Assembly: GCA_017477245.1 (NCBI GenBank)
Contig: JAFUWY010000036.1
Location: 26,495-90,494, forward strand
Direction: 5' to 3'
DNA length: 64,000 bases
Origin: Bacteroidales bacterium
GTDB lineage: Bacteria; Bacteroidota; Bacteroidia; Bacteroidales; UBA932
A program made the translations under genes and the position numbers. Below, in pieces: positions 24,121 through 30,984 of this stretch. Positions within the stretch are counted from its first letter, which is position 1; each line of letters opens with the position of its first letter. The notes beneath the pieces are model-generated. The model searched no databases and was not told the DNA's origin. It was given only the letters and a program-made list of their open reading frames with translations.

Positions 24121-24180
24121 CCTCAACCACAACGTCCCCGACAAAAAGGAAAAGCCCTCGCCAGGGGCAAAAAATACCCA

Positions 24181-24815
24181 CAGCGCCCCTGGCAGCAGGA
24201 AAAAGCAGTTGCCAAGGGCGGAGAAAGGCCTCAGCGCCCCTGACGGCAGGAAAAAACAGTTACCGAGGGCGGAAAAGGCCCTCAGCGCCCCTAGCAGCGA
24301 GAAAAAGCAGTTGCCGAGGGCGAAGAAGGTCCTCAGCGCCCCTGGCAGCAGAAAAAAAACAGTTACCGAGGGCGGAGAAGGGCCCCAGTGCCCCTGGCGG
24401 CAGGAAAAAGCAGTTGCCGAGGGCGAAGAAGGCCATCAGCGCCCCTAGCAGCGGGAAAAAGCTGTTGCCGAGGGCGGAAAAGGCCCTCAGCGCCCCTGGC
24501 GGCAGGAAAAAGCAGTTGCCGAGGGCAGAGAAGGCCCTCTGCGCCCCTGGCAGCAGAAATAAACAGTTGCCAAGGGCAGAGAAGGCCCTCAGCGCCCCTG
24601 GCAGCGGGAAAAAGCAGTTGCCGAGGGCGAAGAAGGCCATCAGCGCCCCTGGCAGCAGAAATAAACAGTTGCCGAGGGCGGAAAAGGCCCTCAGCGCCCC
24701 TGGCAGCGAGAAAAAGCTGTTGCCGAGGGCGGAAAAGGCCCTCAGCGCCCCTGACGGCAGGAAAAAGCAGTTGCCAAGGGCGGAGAAAGGCCTCAGCGCC
24801 CCTGGCGGCAGGGAT
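24181..24815. repeat. Thirteen 51-bp tandem units, locus 2
   Basis: CAGCGCCCCT or a close variant starts at 24181, 24232, 24283, 24334, 24386, 24437, 24488, 24539, 24590, 24641, 24692, 24743 and 24794. The period is 51 bp with one 52-bp step. Units alternate in detail (GGCAGCAG, GACGGCAG, AGCAGCGA), suggesting amplification of multi-unit blocks. The same unit occurs three times at 15821-15970. Confidence 0.93.
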
Positions 24816-24962
24816 AACAGTTCGAGCGGAGCGAGGCGTCGTCAGGCGCGTGCCGAAAAGAAGGAAGGAAGGAAAAGGAGAAGGAAAGGGAGGGAGGAGC
24901 GATGCGACGACCGGAAGGCATCCGGCGCGAAGGCATCCCGGGGCCGGAGGCCGCAGGCCGGC

Positions 24963-25078
24963 AGAAGGGGGACGACGGCAGAAGGGGGACGACGGCAGAA
25001 AGGGGACGACGGCAGCAAGGGGACGACGGCAGAAGGGGGACGACGGCAGAAGGGGGACGACGGCAGAAGGGGGACGGC
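24963..25078. repeat. 17-bp tandem repeat, nearly seven copies
   Basis: AGAAGGGGGACGACGGC starts at 24963, 24980, 24997, 25014, 25031, 25048 and 25065, with two base variants and a truncated last unit. The period is not divisible by three, so it is not a coding repeat. Confidence 0.9.
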
Positions 25079-25125: not shown

Positions 25126-25129
25126 GATG

Positions 25130-25214
25130 CGGTGAGTGAGGGATTCGAACCCCCGGTACGTTGCCGTACACCTGTTTTCGAGGCAGGCTCCTTCAACCAC
25201 TCGGACAACTCACC
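25130..25214 (-). tRNA. tRNA-Ser (anticodon CGA)
   Basis: On the minus strand it has acceptor GGTGAGT/ACTCACC, anticodon loop CTCGAAA (anticodon CGA, codon UCG) and a long type II variable arm (TGTACGGCAACGTACC). The T loop is TTCGAAT and the discriminator is G73. The stem pair 31-39 is C-A. CCA is not encoded. Confidence 0.92.
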
Positions 25215-25275: not shown

Positions 25276-25283
25276 TATATTTG
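25276..25283 (+). promoter_or_regulatory. -7 box for the STAS/alarmone operon
   Basis: TATATTTG matches TAnnTTTG and leaves a leader of about 30 nt before the STAS gene. The -33 region has no clear TTTG. Confidence 0.55.
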
Positions 25284-25317: not shown

Positions 25318-25626
25318 ATGGAAATCAATATCACAAACAACGGCGACTCGATGGTCTGCACCCTCGCGGGACGGCTGGACACACCCGCTTCCCTGCAGGT
25401 TTCCAAGGACATCCAGCCCCTGCTGGACAACGCCGACAAGGAGATCATACTAGACTGCACCGACCTGGAGTACATCAGCAGCTCGGGCCTGCGGATCCTG
25501 CTCGGCATCCGCAAGGAGACCGCCCGCAAGGGCGGCAAGGTGATCCTCAAGCACATCCGCGAGGAGATCCGCCAGGTCTTCCTGATGACCGGCTTCTACA
25601 ACCTGTTCGAGATCCAGGATTCCTGA
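25318..25626 (+). CDS. STAS-domain anti-sigma-factor antagonist (RsbV/SpoIIAA-like)
   Basis: This 102-residue single-domain protein has the STAS signature LDCTDLEYISSSGLRILLG. The Ser just before the Gly (Ser56) matches the regulatory phospho-Ser of SpoIIAA/RsbV; the usual Asp-Ser-Ser-Gly is Ser-Ser-Ser-Gly here. In partner switching the unphosphorylated form binds an RsbW-type kinase and frees the target. A SpoIIE-type phosphatase joined to an RsbW-like domain is encoded at the end of the same operon (28781-30856), so both control enzymes are present. Its TGA overlaps the next ATG (TGATG), showing tight coupling with the (p)ppGpp synthetase gene. Confidence 0.93.
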   Translation: MEINITNNGDSMVCTLAGRLDTPASLQVSKDIQPLLDNADKEIILDCTDLEYISSSGLRILLGIRKETARKGGKVILKHIREEIRQVFLMTGFYNLFEIQDS

Positions 25627-26714
25627 TGGCGGACTACGGACTTGACCCGCACGGGAACCTCATCCTGGACGAGTACCGCCAGATGCGCCCGGCGCTGCAG
25701 AAGATGAAGGAGGTCGCACTCTCCATCATCCGGAAGGACATTGCCGACAAGAACCTCATGGTCACGGCGACGGAAGCCCGGGTGAAGGAGGAGGGCAGCC
25801 TGGCCGGCAAGCTTGCGCTCAAAGGCCACAAGTACGCCACGGCGCGGGACATCACCGACCTGCTGGGCGTACGCGTCATCACCTTCTACAGCGACGACGT
25901 GGACAAGATCGCAGCCATGGCCGAAAACCTCTTCTGGATCGACCGGGAGAACTCCGTGGACAAGCGCAAGATGCACCAGCTCGACAGTTTCGGCTACAAC
26001 TCCCTGCACTACATCTGCCGCATCCCCGAATATCTCTACAAGGACCCGGACTTCCCGGAGATCAACGAGATCCGCTTCGAGCTCCAGATCCGCACCTCCC
26101 TGCAGCATGTCTGGGCCACCCTCTACCACGACTCCGGCTACAAATCCGGCGTGGAGGTGCCCAGCCAGTACCTCCGGCAGATGAACCGCCTGGCCGGCAT
26201 GCTCGAACTGGCGGACGAGCAGTTCTGCGTGATCCGCCGCGACATCAACGACTACCGCCGCCGCGTGCAGTCGCTCGTCTCCGACGGCCGCCTGGAGGAA
26301 GTCGCGCTCGACGGCGACACGTTCAAGAGCTACCTCGCGATGCAGCCCTTCGACACCCTCAACCGCCGGATCGCCGCCCTCAACCAGGCGGAGATCCAGG
26401 AAGTCCCCCTGCAGCGCTACCTCCCCGTCCTCAAGGACCTGGGCATGACCACCCTCGGAGACGTGGAGCAGATGATCCGGGGCGGCCAGGAGGACGCCTA
26501 CCGGCTGGCCTCCTACCAGCTCGGCGTGACCGACATCGACATCATCACCTCCGCCGTGGCCATCCAGAACCTCTGCATCGTCACCATCCTGCGCAACGGC
26601 GGCGGCAAGCCCGGCCTGCAGTCCCTGTTCGACACGATCAACGGCCAGTCCGAGGCCAACGCATCCCTGGCAGAGATGATTTACCATCAGGCAGAAAACC
26701 TCAAACTAATCTGA
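25626..26714 (+). CDS. RelA/SpoT-type (p)ppGpp synthetase without hydrolase domain
   Basis: The protein has 362 residues. The first ~220 form a RelA/SpoT nucleotidyltransferase domain: VTATEARVKEEGSLAGKLALKG near residues 41-62 (equivalent of the R-x-K-x3-S-x2-K stretch), DLLGVRVITFYSDD, DSFGYNSLHYI near 121, and FELQIRTSLQHVWA near 154, which has the catalytic Glu and the Q-x-R-T motif. There is no HD domain and no TGS/ACT, so it is a synthetase-only type, though longer than the usual ~210-250 residue small alarmone synthetases. The C-terminal ~140 residues are helical and unassigned. The hydrolase-type HD protein is encoded two genes downstream, suggesting a split synthesis/turnover pair. 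Confidence 0.88.
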   Translation: MADYGLDPHGNLILDEYRQMRPALQKMKEVALSIIRKDIADKNLMVTATEARVKEEGSLAGKLALKGHKYATARDITDLLGVRVITFYSDDVDKIAAMAENLFWIDRENSVDKRKMHQLDSFGYNSLHYICRIPEYLYKDPDFPEINEIRFELQIRTSLQHVWATLYHDSGYKSGVEVPSQYLRQMNRLAGMLELADEQFCVIRRDINDYRRRVQSLVSDGRLEEVALDGDTFKSYLAMQPFDTLNRRIAALNQAEIQEVPLQRYLPVLKDLGMTTLGDVEQMIRGGQEDAYRLASYQLGVTDIDIITSAVAIQNLCIVTILRNGGGKPGLQSLFDTINGQSEANASLAEMIYHQAENLKLI

Positions 26715-26717
26715 CCC

Positions 26718-27374
26718 ATGCAAACCCAAGAGAAATTCGTCATCACCATCAGCCGCGAACTCGGCTCCGGCGGCCGGACCATCGGCCGCAAGCTCGCCGG
26801 GAAGCTCGGCGTGCGATACTGCGACAAGCTTCTGGTCCAGTCCCTGGTCGAGAAGTTCAACCTGACCACCTATGAGATCGAGAAGATCAAGGGCCAGAAG
26901 AAAAACTGGCTGTCCGACTTCCTCGACAAGGTGGCCCCCATCCCCCGGGCCGACCTGATGATCGGCCCGCGCGCCGCGGCCACCGAGAACCCGTATCCCC
27001 ACCATACCACCTCCGACGAGCTCTTCGCTGCGGAGACCGAGATCCTCAATGCCATCGCGGACGAGGCATCCTGCGTCATCGCCGGCCGCTCCGGATTCTT
27101 CGTCCTGAAAGACCGGCCCAACAAGCTCGACATCCTGATCCGTGCGCCGCGCGAGGAGCGCATCGCGCGCGTCATGCGCAGGCAGAACGTCTCGCAGGAG
27201 GAAGCGGCGACCCTCATCGACAGCGTCGACGCAGGGCGCGACAACTTCGTCAAGCACTTCGCCGGCGTGAGCCGGTACGACGCCCGCAACTACGACCTCG
27301 TCCTGAATGTCGGCGGGATGAGCGAAGACGATGCCGTGGAGATCATCCTGGACTACATCAAGCACAGCGCATAA
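26718..27374 (+). CDS. Cytidylate kinase-like P-loop protein
   Basis: The protein has 218 residues with an N-terminal P-loop ITISRELGSGGRTIGRKLA (about 8-26), the form seen in the cytidylate-kinase-like family, and a later VIAGRSGFFVL and LIRAPREERIARVMRR (lid arginines). The true Cmk has a different length and a distinct NMP-binding insert, so the substrate may not be CMP. Nucleotide phosphorylation would fit an operon that makes and degrades guanosine tetraphosphate, but this is inference. It starts 3 bp after the synthetase gene, and its TAA overlaps the next start (TAATG). Confidence 0.85.
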   Translation: MQTQEKFVITISRELGSGGRTIGRKLAGKLGVRYCDKLLVQSLVEKFNLTTYEIEKIKGQKKNWLSDFLDKVAPIPRADLMIGPRAAATENPYPHHTTSDELFAAETEILNAIADEASCVIAGRSGFFVLKDRPNKLDILIRAPREERIARVMRRQNVSQEEAATLIDSVDAGRDNFVKHFAGVSRYDARNYDLVLNVGGMSEDDAVEIILDYIKHSA

Positions 27375-28774
27375 TGGCCAACCGTCCCCTCGACACGCAC
27401 CTGCTGGACAGGGCCATCGGCTTCGCCGTGCAGGCGCACGCCGGGACGGAGCGCCGCGGCAAGGGTTACCCCTATATCCTCCATCCGCTCGAGGCTGCCG
27501 CCATCGCGGCCACGATCACGCCGGACCAGGAGATCCTCGCGGCCGCCGTCCTGCACGACACCGTCGAGGACACGGACGTGACCGTCGAAGCGCTCCGCGC
27601 CGAGTTCGGCGACCGGATCGCCGAACTGGTGGCCGCGGAGAGCGACGACCCGATGGAGCATCTCCCCGCCTCGGCCAGCTGGCACACCCGCAAGCAGGCC
27701 GCGATCGACCGGCTGGCCCGGGCATCGCACGACGCCAAGATCGTGGCGATGGGAGACAAACTCTCCAACATGCGCGCGATCGCGCAGGACTATGCCGCCC
27801 GGGGCGAAGAACTGTGGAAGATCTTCCACGTCACCGACCGCCGGGAGCACGAGTGGCACTACCGCGGCCTCGCCGCCTCGCTCTCCGAGCTCTCCGGCAC
27901 GGCCGCCTACCAGGAGTTCGTCCGCCTCATCGACGAGGTGTTCAGCCAGCCCGTCCGCATCGACCTCGCGGACTACGAGCCCGCCGGCGAAGGAGCCAAC
28001 GGCAGCAGCTACAACCACCGCACCGACCCGGACGTTATGCTCAAGCTCTACAAGCCCGGGGTCACCCGGCAGCCGATGGACGAAGTCAACGTGGCCCGCA
28101 AGGTGTTCGAAACCGGCATCCCGACGCCCGAACCGGGCGAGCTCGTGACCGACGGGGAGCGGCTCGGCATCCGCTTCCGCCGCATCCCCGGCAAGGTGTC
28201 CTTCTCCCGCGCCATCGGCGAGGATCCTTCCCGCGTGGGCGAATTCGCCACCCTGTTCGCGCAGATGTGCCGTCAACTGCACGCTACCCGCCTCGACACC
28301 TCGCGTTTCGAGAACGTCAAGGACCGCTACCTGCGGCTGCTCGACGAGAATCCTTTCTTCACCGATTTCCAGAAACGCCGGATCGTGAAGTTCATCCGCC
28401 AGGCGCCGGACGCCGACACGGCCCTCCACGGCGACCTGCAGTTCAGCAACGTCATCTTCGCCGGGGACAAGCGCTACTTCATCGACCTCGGAGACTTCTG
28501 CTACGGGCATCCCCTGTTCGACCTCGGGATGGTCTACCTGTGCAGCAAGCTGAGCAGCGAAGACTTCATCCGCGAGACCTACCACATGGACAAGTCCACC
28601 GCCATCGCGTTCTGGGACGCCTTCGTGCCCACCTACTTCGGGCCGGACGCCGACCCGCAGGCCATTGAGCGCGAAGTCCGAATCTATGCCGGCCTCAAGA
28701 CCCTGATCATCGAACGCGACACCCGCTGCCCGATGCCCGAGTTCCGCGCTGCCCTCGAGCCCCTTTTCAAATAG
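27374..28774 (+). CDS. HD hydrolase (SpoT-type) fused to a kinase-fold (APH-like) domain
   Basis: The protein has 466 residues. Residues 1-190 are an HD domain close to that of SpoT/RelA hydrolases: AHAG (22), GYPYILHPLEAAAI with His37, AAVLHDTVEDT with His61-Asp62 and Glu65-Asp66, and a later MGDKLSNMRA. Residues about 205-466 resemble the aminoglycoside-phosphotransferase-like family: an N-lobe with GEGANGSSYNH and VMLKLYKPG (probable ATP Lys), HGDLQFSNVIF (catalytic loop, near 352) and FIDLGDFCYGHPLFDLG (metal Asp). Both active sites look intact. The HD part probably hydrolyses (p)ppGpp; what the kinase phosphorylates is unknown. Confidence 0.85.
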   Translation: MANRPLDTHLLDRAIGFAVQAHAGTERRGKGYPYILHPLEAAAIAATITPDQEILAAAVLHDTVEDTDVTVEALRAEFGDRIAELVAAESDDPMEHLPASASWHTRKQAAIDRLARASHDAKIVAMGDKLSNMRAIAQDYAARGEELWKIFHVTDRREHEWHYRGLAASLSELSGTAAYQEFVRLIDEVFSQPVRIDLADYEPAGEGANGSSYNHRTDPDVMLKLYKPGVTRQPMDEVNVARKVFETGIPTPEPGELVTDGERLGIRFRRIPGKVSFSRAIGEDPSRVGEFATLFAQMCRQLHATRLDTSRFENVKDRYLRLLDENPFFTDFQKRRIVKFIRQAPDADTALHGDLQFSNVIFAGDKRYFIDLGDFCYGHPLFDLGMVYLCSKLSSEDFIRETYHMDKSTAIAFWDAFVPTYFGPDADPQAIEREVRIYAGLKTLIIERDTRCPMPEFRAALEPLFK

Positions 28775-28780
28775 ACACCC

Positions 28781-30856
28781 ATGAGAGTCAAGAATACATT
28801 CCGGCGCCTGTTCGCCATCCACGGCCTCGCGTTCATCCTGGTCGTAGCCACGCTGCTGGAGGCCACATCCCTCATCCAGTACCACTTCATGAAGAAGGGC
28901 ATGCTGGAAGAAGCCGACCGGCGCGCCGAGAGCGAGCTCGCCATCGCGCGGCTCCAGATCGAGAAGGTGACCAGTTCCGTGGAGTCCACCGTCCGGAACA
29001 CCGCTTGGGCCCTGACCGACACGCTCTCCCATCCGGAAGTCCTCAACGTCTACATCCGCAAGATGCTGGACACCAATCCCACCATCATCGATGCCGGCAT
29101 GGCCTTCGTCTCGGATTATTACCCCGCGAAGGGCCATTGGTTCGAGCCGCTCATCGCCCGCCGGACGGACGGTTCCTACGAAGAGATGGTCCTGGGGTCC
29201 GAGTCGCACGATTACTTCCAGACGGACTGGTTCCAGAAAGGCCTCCAGGCTGAGGAAGGCTATTGGAGCGAGCCCTATTTCGACGAAAGCGGCGGCCGGA
29301 CGACCCTGGTCAGCTATTCCTTCCCCCTGCGTGACCCGTCGGGAGCGACGGTGGGTGTCGTCGTCGCGGACCTCTCCCTGGCCTGGCTCACCGAAATGAT
29401 CGTCGGCGTGCAGCCCTACCCCGACTCCTTCGGCACGATCACCAGCCGCGAAGGCAAGCTGATGGCCGCCCCGGCGGAGACGCTCCGGGTAGCCAACCCC
29501 CTGCGCTACGAGTCCCAGATCGAGAATACCGGATGGAATTTGTCCATCGTCCTCCCCGAGAAAGAAGTCTACGGCAACGCCAACCGCATCGGCGGCCTGG
29601 TCCTGCTCCTGCAGTTGGTCGGCCTCGCACTGCTCGGCCTGATCCTCCACCGCACCGCGCGCAACCTCTACAAGCTCAAGAGCGTCTCCGAGACCAAGGA
29701 GAAGATCGAGAACGAACTCCGCATCGCCAGCAACATCCAGATGGCGATGCTTCCGAAGATCTTCCCGCCCTACCCGGACCGCCAGGACATCGACATCTTC
29801 GCCTCCCTCGTGCCCGCCAAGGAAGTCGGCGGCGACCTGTTCGACTATTTCATCCGCGACGAGCGGCTCTATTTCTGCATCGGCGACGTCTCCGGCAAGG
29901 GCGTGCCCGCCTCGCTGGTGATGGCGGTCACGCGCAGCCTCTTCCGCACCGTGTCCGGCCACGAGATCTATCCCGCCCGGATCGTCTCGCACATGAACGA
30001 CTCGATGTCGGAGGGCAACGACAACAACATGTTCGTCACCTTCTTCGTCGGCGTGCTGGACATGACGACCGGCGTGCTGCGCTATTGCAATGCCGGGCAC
30101 AACGCTCCCCTGCTGCTGCACGACGGAGCCGTGACGCCCGTCAGCGTGAAGCCCAACCTCCCGCTCGGCGTGGCCGGCGGCATGCGTTTCGTCCAGCAGG
30201 AGATGACGGTGCCTTCCGGCAGCGCCCTGTTCCTCTACACGGACGGACTGACCGAGGCGGAGAACGCCCGCCACGAGCTGTTCAGCGAGCGGCGCCTGCT
30301 CAAGGTGGCTGCCGACGTGAGCACCCTCAGCGCCCGCGAGCAGGTGGCCGGCATCCACGAGGCGGTGCGCCGGCATGTCAAGGACGCGCCGCAGAGCGAC
30401 GACCTGACGATGCTCTGCATCCGCTACCTGGGCCAGCCCGAACAGGTGAGCGACCGCCACCTCATCCTGCACAACGACATCCAGCAGATCCCCCAGCTGG
30501 CCGATTTCGTGGAGACCATCGCCGAGGAGTCCGGCCTCAGCCAGCCCCTCGCCATGAGCCTCAACCTGGCGCTGGAAGAAGCCGTCACCAATGTGATCGT
30601 GTATGCCTACCCGGAGGGGACGGACGGGCTCGTGGACATCGAAGCCATCATCCGCAAGGACCTCATCCGCTTCATCATCAGCGACAGCGGACAGCCGTTC
30701 GACCCCACCCAGGTCGAGGCCGTGGACATCAACCTGCCGCTGGACGAGCGCCCGATCGGCGGCCTGGGCATCCACCTCGTCCGCAGCATCATGGACGAAG
30801 TCTCCTACGAACGCGTCGACGGCAAGAACCACCTCTACCTCATCAAGAAACTGTAG
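28781..30856 (+). CDS. Membrane sensor with SpoIIE/PP2C phosphatase and RsbW-like kinase domains
   Basis: The protein has 691 residues. A membrane helix (about 10-32), a ~235-residue extracytoplasmic sensor region of Cache type (ESHDYFQTDWFQKGLQAEEGYWSEPYFDE) and a second helix (about 270-292) come first. A SpoIIE-type PP2C phosphatase domain follows (IQMAMLPKIFPP, then VGGDLFDYF near 348 and GDVSGKGVPASLVM). The C-terminal ~135 residues form an RsbW-like GHKL kinase (LALEEAVTNVIVYAYP near 596, FIISDSGQPFDP, GGLGIHLVRSIMD). Phosphatase and kinase act in opposite directions on STAS proteins, so this one polypeptide could set the phosphorylation of the STAS protein encoded first in the operon. 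No HAMP domain is seen. Confidence 0.93.
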   Translation: MRVKNTFRRLFAIHGLAFILVVATLLEATSLIQYHFMKKGMLEEADRRAESELAIARLQIEKVTSSVESTVRNTAWALTDTLSHPEVLNVYIRKMLDTNPTIIDAGMAFVSDYYPAKGHWFEPLIARRTDGSYEEMVLGSESHDYFQTDWFQKGLQAEEGYWSEPYFDESGGRTTLVSYSFPLRDPSGATVGVVVADLSLAWLTEMIVGVQPYPDSFGTITSREGKLMAAPAETLRVANPLRYESQIENTGWNLSIVLPEKEVYGNANRIGGLVLLLQLVGLALLGLILHRTARNLYKLKSVSETKEKIENELRIASNIQMAMLPKIFPPYPDRQDIDIFASLVPAKEVGGDLFDYFIRDERLYFCIGDVSGKGVPASLVMAVTRSLFRTVSGHEIYPARIVSHMNDSMSEGNDNNMFVTFFVGVLDMTTGVLRYCNAGHNAPLLLHDGAVTPVSVKPNLPLGVAGGMRFVQQEMTVPSGSALFLYTDGLTEAENARHELFSERRLLKVAADVSTLSAREQVAGIHEAVRRHVKDAPQSDDLTMLCIRYLGQPEQVSDRHLILHNDIQQIPQLADFVETIAEESGLSQPLAMSLNLALEEAVTNVIVYAYPEGTDGLVDIEAIIRKDLIRFIISDSGQPFDPTQVEAVDINLPLDERPIGGLGIHLVRSIMDEVSYERVDGKNHLYLIKKL

Positions 30857-30895: not shown

Positions 30896-30899
30896 GAAG

Positions 30900-30984
30900 C
30901 GGAGGCGGAGGGATTCGAACCCCCGGTACGTTGCCGTACAACAGTTTTCAAGACTGCCGCCATCGACCACTCGGCCACACCTCC
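30900..30984 (-). tRNA. tRNA-Ser (anticodon TGA)
   Basis: On the minus strand it has acceptor GGAGGTG/CGCCTCC and anticodon loop CTTGAAA (TGA, codon UCA). The long variable arm TGTACGGCAACGTACC is identical to that of the tRNA-Ser(CGA) at 25130. The discriminator is G73. CCA is not encoded. Confidence 0.93.

Follow-up and report, generated by a model that had tools for sequence, protein, structure and literature searches.

The operon described here is encoded on a 64,000-nucleotide stretch (the window) from the genome of a Bacteroidales bacterium (contig JAFUWY010000036.1) and consists of five genes for, in order, a STAS protein, a small alarmone synthetase (SYN), a cytidylate-kinase-like protein (CMK), an HD hydrolase-like protein fused to an APH-type kinase (HD-APH) and a sensor which combines a SpoIIE phosphatase (PP2C) with an RsbW-like kinase (HATP). 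It is proposed that these genes form a partner-switching circuit whose output is not a sigma factor but alarmone metabolism and in which the HD-APH protein is the best candidate for the STAS target, a reading whose chances we consider even. Control of these operon enzymes by the switch is, taken by itself, likely, and the identity of the direct STAS target is held with less confidence than such control. Stringent-response control is mostly described at the long RelA/SpoT homologue (RSH) proteins, whose cues, ribosomes and metabolites, are intracellular; the wiring deduced here from genomes suggests that an outside signal can set the (p)ppGpp alarm directly. Partner switches on c-di-GMP synthases are already known, and what appears to be new, on the evidence of sequence, is a STAS switch joined to alarmone enzymes.

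Pfam and NCBIfam profiles were used for the domain assignment of the five proteins and back each of the gene families named in a preliminary description of the locus, whose five frames all lie where it had placed them, with overlaps of 1 bp at the STAS/SYN and CMK/HD-APH junctions and gaps of 3 bp between SYN and CMK and 6 bp between HD-APH and the sensor (Table 1). The partner-switch module is represented by a STAS protein with a conserved serine, an RsbW/SpoIIAB-like kinase with the N-box and G-boxes and a SpoIIE/RsbU-type phosphatase with metal-binding aspartates. In the STAS protein S54 and S55 are invariant across an alignment of 142 sequences, and Ser55 (codon 25480-25482) aligns with the phospho-serine position in SpoIIAA structures, which we take to be the serine that receives the phosphate. 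The kinase domain of the sensor has E600, N604 and G663 invariant and D635, G637 and G661 conserved at 99% (136 sequences) and misses the RsbW and SpoIIAB equivalog cut-offs, while in the phosphatase domain D352, D540 and D541 are invariant and D369 and D488 are conserved at 99% (126 sequences). The PDC/Cache domain of the sensor is bracketed by hydrophobic segments at residues 10-28 and 270-288, and the protein is predicted to be membrane-anchored and to face the periplasm.

Of the enzymes encoded with the switch, SYN is a predicted small alarmone synthetase which contains a SYNTH domain, lacks HD, TGS and ACT domains and keeps the RelQ/RelP catalytic positions. It is composed of a catalytic part (approximately residues 1-210), whose fold is closer to RelQ/RelP than to CapRel or the FaRel2 complex chain (residues 1-207 compared), and a putatively helical C-terminal part (approximately residues 215-362). 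SYN misses the NCBIfam YjbM/RelQ equivalog cut-off (46.6 bits against 320) and is, judged by its sequence, a distinct subfamily relative to YjbM/RelQ. The HD domain of HD-APH (residues 14-140) shows no variation at H37, H61, D62, E65, D66, D128 and N132 among 170 aligned sequences; presumably these are the seven catalytic positions, and with the SpoT/Mesh1 catalytic residues kept the domain is a predicted small alarmone hydrolase. Its best PDB matches are Lmo0812 (4yf1), the HD proteins 7qoc and 7qoe, Rel proteins and MESH1. The kinase half (residues 196-421) passes the curated TIGR02172 cut-off with 246.2 bits against 228.2 and has K224, E237, H352, D354, N359 and D371 invariant (131 sequences). 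That alarmone synthetases and hydrolases can be separate small proteins (SAS and SAH) is well established, and the premise of the preliminary description, that synthesis and hydrolysis normally reside in one RSH protein, is therefore only partly right; such separate enzymes also feature in part of an RSH survey (PMC3153485). The window genome additionally carries two long RSH frames of 729 and 704 residues, so that the operon adds to the usual alarmone enzymes.

The operon is almost certainly a conserved unit. A survey of 400 genomes of the genus with a 47-row SYN alignment as query found SYN in 228 (88 of the 150 of better quality), and 114 genus loci were compiled from the window, 17 loci of an earlier search and 96 survey matches which were drawn from the best-scoring matches listed and in which the distance between the contig start and SYN is no less than about 7.6 kb. 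Counting same-strand profile matches within 6.5 kb of SYN at the 90 loci with at least 6.5 kb on either side, STAS is present at 84, the RsbW-like kinase at 84, APH at 82, SpoIIE at 81 and HD at a minimum of 81 (the frame-based count missed an HD match in locus L172). The whole switch, comprising STAS, SpoIIE and kinase, occurs near SYN at 79 of these loci, together with HD at 74 and with HD and APH at 72, whereas CMK is found at only 11; co-occurrence of all five genes in relatives, proposed in the preliminary description as a check, is thus borne out for SYN with the switch, HD and APH and not for CMK, which is accessory in this operon family. The refuting outcome named there, a scattering of the genes in relatives, did not occur. 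The commonest gene order, SYN HD APH PP2C-HATP STAS, is seen at 66 of the 114 loci, and the window operon is a variant of it in which STAS comes first and CMK has been inserted. At 86 of the 114 loci, those with SYN, PP2C, HATP, STAS and some flank, the frames at the four main junctions overlap or lie at most 10 bp apart in 91-99%, and the flanking genes are not conserved, the commonest flanking family being present at 21 of 86 loci and the next at 11.

At the level of whole genomes, 223 of the 400 carry both SYN and TIGR02172, 5 SYN only, 16 TIGR02172 only and 156 neither (Fisher p 1e-84, where kinship of the genomes makes the independence overstated). TIGR02172 kinases reach at least seven matches in a single genome of the genus, and most copies therefore cannot all sit in an alarmone operon. 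In a sample of 395 genomes from the phylum, the window genome alone has a strong SYN match (601 bits); the twelve other homologues score 78-219 bits and show no switch, HD or APH match nearby (L315-L326). An HD homologue on a Subdoligranulum plasmid likewise has no switch genes within the 10.5 kb read.

The preliminary description had also taken the five genes for one transcription unit, and the distribution of TAnnTTTG, presumably the Bacteroidota -7 promoter motif, agrees with it. The motif is more frequent in the window than expected (21 observed against 5.4), yet the match upstream of the STAS gene is the sole one on the plus strand from 12372 to 35372 and none lies inside 25318-30856 on either strand. 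Relatives have a like pattern, in that a match is located at most 200 bp upstream of SYN at 60 of 99 genus loci and ahead of HD at 2 of 92, APH at 4 of 92, PP2C at 2 of 96 and STAS at 6 of 100. A single transcription unit is therefore supported as a prediction. The operon is flanked on either side by a tRNA-Ser gene of the opposite strand, and these genes were considered as an integration site, an idea rejected as 48 of the 50 genus loci scanned (of 113) lack tRNA-Ser; among the loci scanned L022 alone shares the pair with the window, and L212 has one such gene. Two tandem arrays lie between the upstream gene and the tRNA-Ser gene, just ahead of the operon.

Table 1. Features of the operon and its immediate surroundings, in window coordinates
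Feature	Position	Strand	Remarks
Tandem array	24177-24812		51-bp unit, 12.5 copies, 84% matches
Tandem array	24959-25076		17-bp unit, 6.9 copies, 96% matches
tRNA-Ser	25129-25214	-	
Match to TAnnTTTG	25276..25283	+	TATATTTG; ~35 bp ahead of STAS
STAS protein, SpoIIAA/RsbV-like, 102 aa	25318..25626	+	PF01740 1.4e-18; TIGR00377 75 bits vs cut-off 53.45
SYN, predicted small alarmone synthetase, 362 aa	25626..26714	+	RelA_SpoT PF04607 4.4e-16
CMK, cytidylate-kinase-like protein, 218 aa, accessory	26718..27374	+	Cytidylate_kin2 PF13189 2.4e-46
HD-APH, HD hydrolase-like + kinase	27374..28774	+	HD_4 1.1e-19; APH 2.3e-18; TIGR02172 3.3e-73
Sensor, PDC/Cache + SpoIIE (PP2C) + RsbW-like kinase, 691 aa	28781..30856	+	SpoIIE 8.9e-53; HATPase_c_2 4.9e-25; MCP-like_PDC_1 2.6e-22
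tRNA-Ser	30899-30984	-	

Gene fusions bear on the target of the STAS protein. Among the loci retrieved with HD-APH as query, 18 encode an APH kinase with STAS as its N-terminal fusion partner, and these belong to 17 Bacillota metagenome-assembled genomes (MAGs) and one Alistipes-labelled MAG (L054). HD lies nearby at all 18, in a search whose query itself contained HD, and a SpoIIE or RsbW-like match is present at 13 of the 17 Bacillota loci. The fused STAS keeps its serine and the fused kinase its catalytic residues in all 17 that were aligned. At L054 the genes for HD, SYN and the STAS-APH fusion stand in a row with no phosphatase or RsbW-like match in the stretch read, and at L084 and L085 a SAS of classical length is found on the opposite strand some kilobases off. 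A second search, in which the HD bias was removed by using a STAS-APH fusion as query, matched 24 of the 391 genomes searched in the class to which L099 belongs (the genome of L099 counted), and 28 loci were read. STAS and APH share one frame at 25 of these, a proportion which follows from the construction of the search (the STAS match of L307 is weak), six loci encode STAS-APH-RsbW triples and a strong match to SpoIIE or an RsbW-like kinase occurs somewhere in the stretch at 15. Physical linkage of the switch to the kinase thus extends over two phyla, with HD and SYN as frequent but separable partners. Because STAS and APH share one polypeptide elsewhere, the kinase half of the HD-APH protein is favoured over SYN as the probable STAS contact.

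The mechanism that may be envisaged begins with the PDC domain, which would sense a ligand outside the cell and set the balance between SpoIIE phosphatase and RsbW-like kinase within one protein, as the families of these domains imply. That balance would decide whether Ser55 of the STAS protein, the conserved serine, carries a phosphate. One form of the STAS protein, probably the unphosphorylated one, would then dock on an operon enzyme, for which the best candidate is the HD-APH polypeptide via its APH/TIGR02172 kinase half, and docking would shift the balance between (p)ppGpp synthesis by SYN and (p)ppGpp destruction by HD in a direction which the model does not specify. A fuller version is put forward more tentatively, in which the phospho-relay sets (p)ppGpp by way of a dedicated synthetase-hydrolase pair, the STAS-controlled APH-type kinase acts as a third alarmone-linked enzyme and the wiring differs between Bacteroidales, where SYN is included, and Bacillota, where STAS is fused to the kinase.

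Several observations weigh against the proposed circuit. In the second fusion search HD is present at only 8 of the 28 loci (six as a neighbouring gene and two as an HD-APH fusion like that of the window) and SYN at none. Four loci (L056, L065, L080 and L097) carry the switch, SYN and HD together in genomes without a TIGR02172 match, where, provided that the MAGs are complete, the switch must have some target other than the kinase, and for this reason direct control may extend to SYN or HD. A further four (L037, L180, L182 and L219) keep the switch, SYN and APH without HD, for which reason the idea of HD as the single indispensable output was rejected, and HD is likewise absent from the rearranged L025. 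SYN is found without any switch gene nearby at 4 of the 90 loci (L165, L203, L238 and L244), and its C-terminal part occurs in standalone viral relatives and hence is not specific to STAS control. In G008 and G015, the nearest relatives in SYN (81% and 77% complete), there is no STAS in the operon stretches read; STAS there adjoins a second, 137-residue RsbW-like kinase, so two kinases may share one STAS protein. Covariation of STAS with its partners, computed by mean-field direct coupling analysis with a reduced alphabet after rows with identical SYN had been removed (140 kept), had an effective sequence number of 6-22 and the STAS-RsbW control was no better than other pairs; it was left unused.

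Alternatively, STAS may act on SYN directly, as SiaC does on SiaD, with the HD-APH protein as no more than a constitutive counterweight. Such an arrangement has its precedent in the SiaC-SiaD pair (PMC8457831, in part) and would suit the overlap of the STAS and SYN genes in the window, the position of STAS immediately before SYN in several relatives (e.g. L042, L056, L060, L065 and L068), the four genomes with switch, SYN and HD that lack TIGR02172 and the four loci which retain switch and SYN without HD. However, no frame joining STAS to SYN occurs in the loci read while STAS-APH frames are common, STAS-APH exists with switch genes in the absence of SYN (0 of 28) and viral relatives without STAS share the C-terminal part of SYN. 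We regard this explanation as rather unlikely in the stated form.

The viral relatives of SYN raise a different possibility. SYN matches phrog_9640 (3.1e-56) and the PADLOC candidate PDC-S33 (1.8e-14), and full-length standalone relatives are encoded on viral or prophage contigs at the best 80 of 94 loci (L338-L417), where the stretches have no STAS, HD, APH, CMK, PP2C or HATP match; these may be phage-defence or cargo genes. Many of them match the operon SYN profile into its C-terminal part, as far as profile position 350, which weakened the candidacy of that part as a STAS-specific docking domain. In a fast tree built from 47 operon, 21 viral and 12 other Bacteroidota sequences (80 rows in all, about one third of the operon and viral rows being used), the operon SYNs form one clade apart from the viral relatives, which suggests that a mobile synthetase may have been recruited a single time. 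Toxic SAS (toxSAS)-SAH pairs likewise place SAS next to SAH. SYN and HD could then be a toxin-antitoxin or phage-defence pair of this kind which was recruited to a stress switch, and the standalone viral relatives with their phrog_9640 and PDC-S33 matches are in support of it, as is the report that SAHs often accompany toxic synthetases (PMC9765508, in part); on balance this origin is very improbable.

The substrates of the enzymes may also be other than (p)ppGpp. Synthetases of (p)ppApp belong to the SAS and SAH families, as does Mesh1, which is reported to act on NADPH (PMC12691689 and PMC9765508, both in part), and the operon holds two further kinases, so that the switch might control metabolism through (p)ppApp, NADPH or a kinase substrate instead of the stringent response. 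The occurrence of STAS-APH with switch genes where SYN is missing would fit such a role. On the other hand, SYN and HD are in most cases retained side by side, and the RelQ/RelP and SpoT/Mesh1 catalytic positions are conserved, for which one shared nucleotide is a fitting explanation; control of other metabolites is accordingly considered quite improbable.

Classical partner switches control sigma factors, and the switch might do so elsewhere in the genome with its operon neighbours incidental. As the preliminary description held, there is no sigma factor within the operon. The window genome, which is 96% complete, has one Sigma70_r3 protein, extracytoplasmic function (ECF) sigma factors not having been surveyed, and therefore offers no candidate of the SigB/SigF type; its sole STAS domain found is that of the operon. 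With a single STAS domain and a single Sigma70_r3 protein, a sigma factor is an unlikely target. In favour of one, the genome encodes a second RsbW-like kinase of 136 residues (L327:7311-7718; domain at G000 C7:87337-87711). No STAS match lies beside this kinase in the window genome, and the frame after it resembles, by eye, a solute-binding protein. Given also that the linkage of STAS with SYN, HD and APH is conserved, incidental neighbours of a sigma switch would be a most implausible explanation.

The window operon shares its three module families, with catalytic residues and STAS serine conserved, with the RsbU/RsbW/RsbV-SigB and SpoIIE/SpoIIAB/SpoIIAA-SigF switches and differs from these in that the operon holds no sigma factor and the genome has a single Sigma70_r3 protein. 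A nucleotide messenger is the output in other systems, as STAS or STAS-like partners govern diguanylate cyclases in the HsbA-HsbD, BgrV-BgrR and SiaC-SiaD pairs (PMC8457831, in part). SiaABCD of Pseudomonas aeruginosa likewise consists of a phosphatase, a kinase and a STAS-like partner whose phosphorylation controls a nucleotide second-messenger synthase, SiaD being activated by SiaC (PMC8457831, in part), and the match of the window sensor to the SiaA model (1.6e-13) stays below the equivalog cut-off (50.1 vs 700). Unlike SiaABCD, in which SiaD is a c-di-GMP cyclase, the window has a predicted alarmone synthetase and hydrolase, unites kinase and phosphatase in one protein and adds an APH kinase. 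Its partner is a true STAS protein (PF01740) and not DUF1987, and with Pfam profiles neither DUF1987 nor GGDEF is matched by any of the five operon proteins, which places the operon outside SiaABCD. In HsbA-HsbD and BgrSTUWV-BgrR the phosphorylation state of a STAS protein controls a diguanylate cyclase (PMC8457831, in part). The nucleotide there is c-di-GMP, whereas in the window it would be an alarmone. HsbR is a joint kinase-phosphatase, and to our knowledge an HD hydrolase and an APH kinase are not part of the Hsb and Bgr switches.

On the side of the enzymes, SYN resembles RelQ/RelP in its fold and catalytic positions and bears in addition a 150-residue, putatively helical part, while HD has the catalytic positions of Mesh1-like hydrolases and differs from them in being fused to or adjoining an APH kinase; both are encoded with a partner switch. 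Rsd/HPr and EIIA-Ntr are SpoT partners which, with phosphorylation involved, set the alarmone level (PMC10704370, in part), but they target a long RSH protein and are not STAS partner switches. Among the open-licence papers listed, at the level of titles and abstract beginnings, none was found in which a partner switch targets an alarmone enzyme, and the words STAS, SpoIIE and sigma are absent from the main text of the RSH survey, as far as a word search of it goes (PMC3153485, in part). The open-licence literature likewise yielded no papers on TIGR02172.

If the proposed circuit is correct, (p)ppGpp would come under outside-in control of the kind described for c-di-GMP, by way of a sensor that faces the periplasm, and partner switching would be extended to a second nucleotide messenger. 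The uncharacterised TIGR02172 kinases would acquire a testable role, and the operon would account for some of the physiology of a large genus of uncultured rumen and gut bacteria. The clusters of relatives contain or adjoin further accessory genes which may hint at ligands or outputs. A Na/H exchanger with TrkA_C is found in or beside the cluster at 11 loci (e.g. L042:262-1788), and others encode an NMT1-type binding protein, an SBP_bac_3/ABC transporter, a Y_phosphatase3 protein and a YegS-type protein (positions L065:10549-11523, L109:3-2591, L079:9073-9993 and L080:7681-8682).

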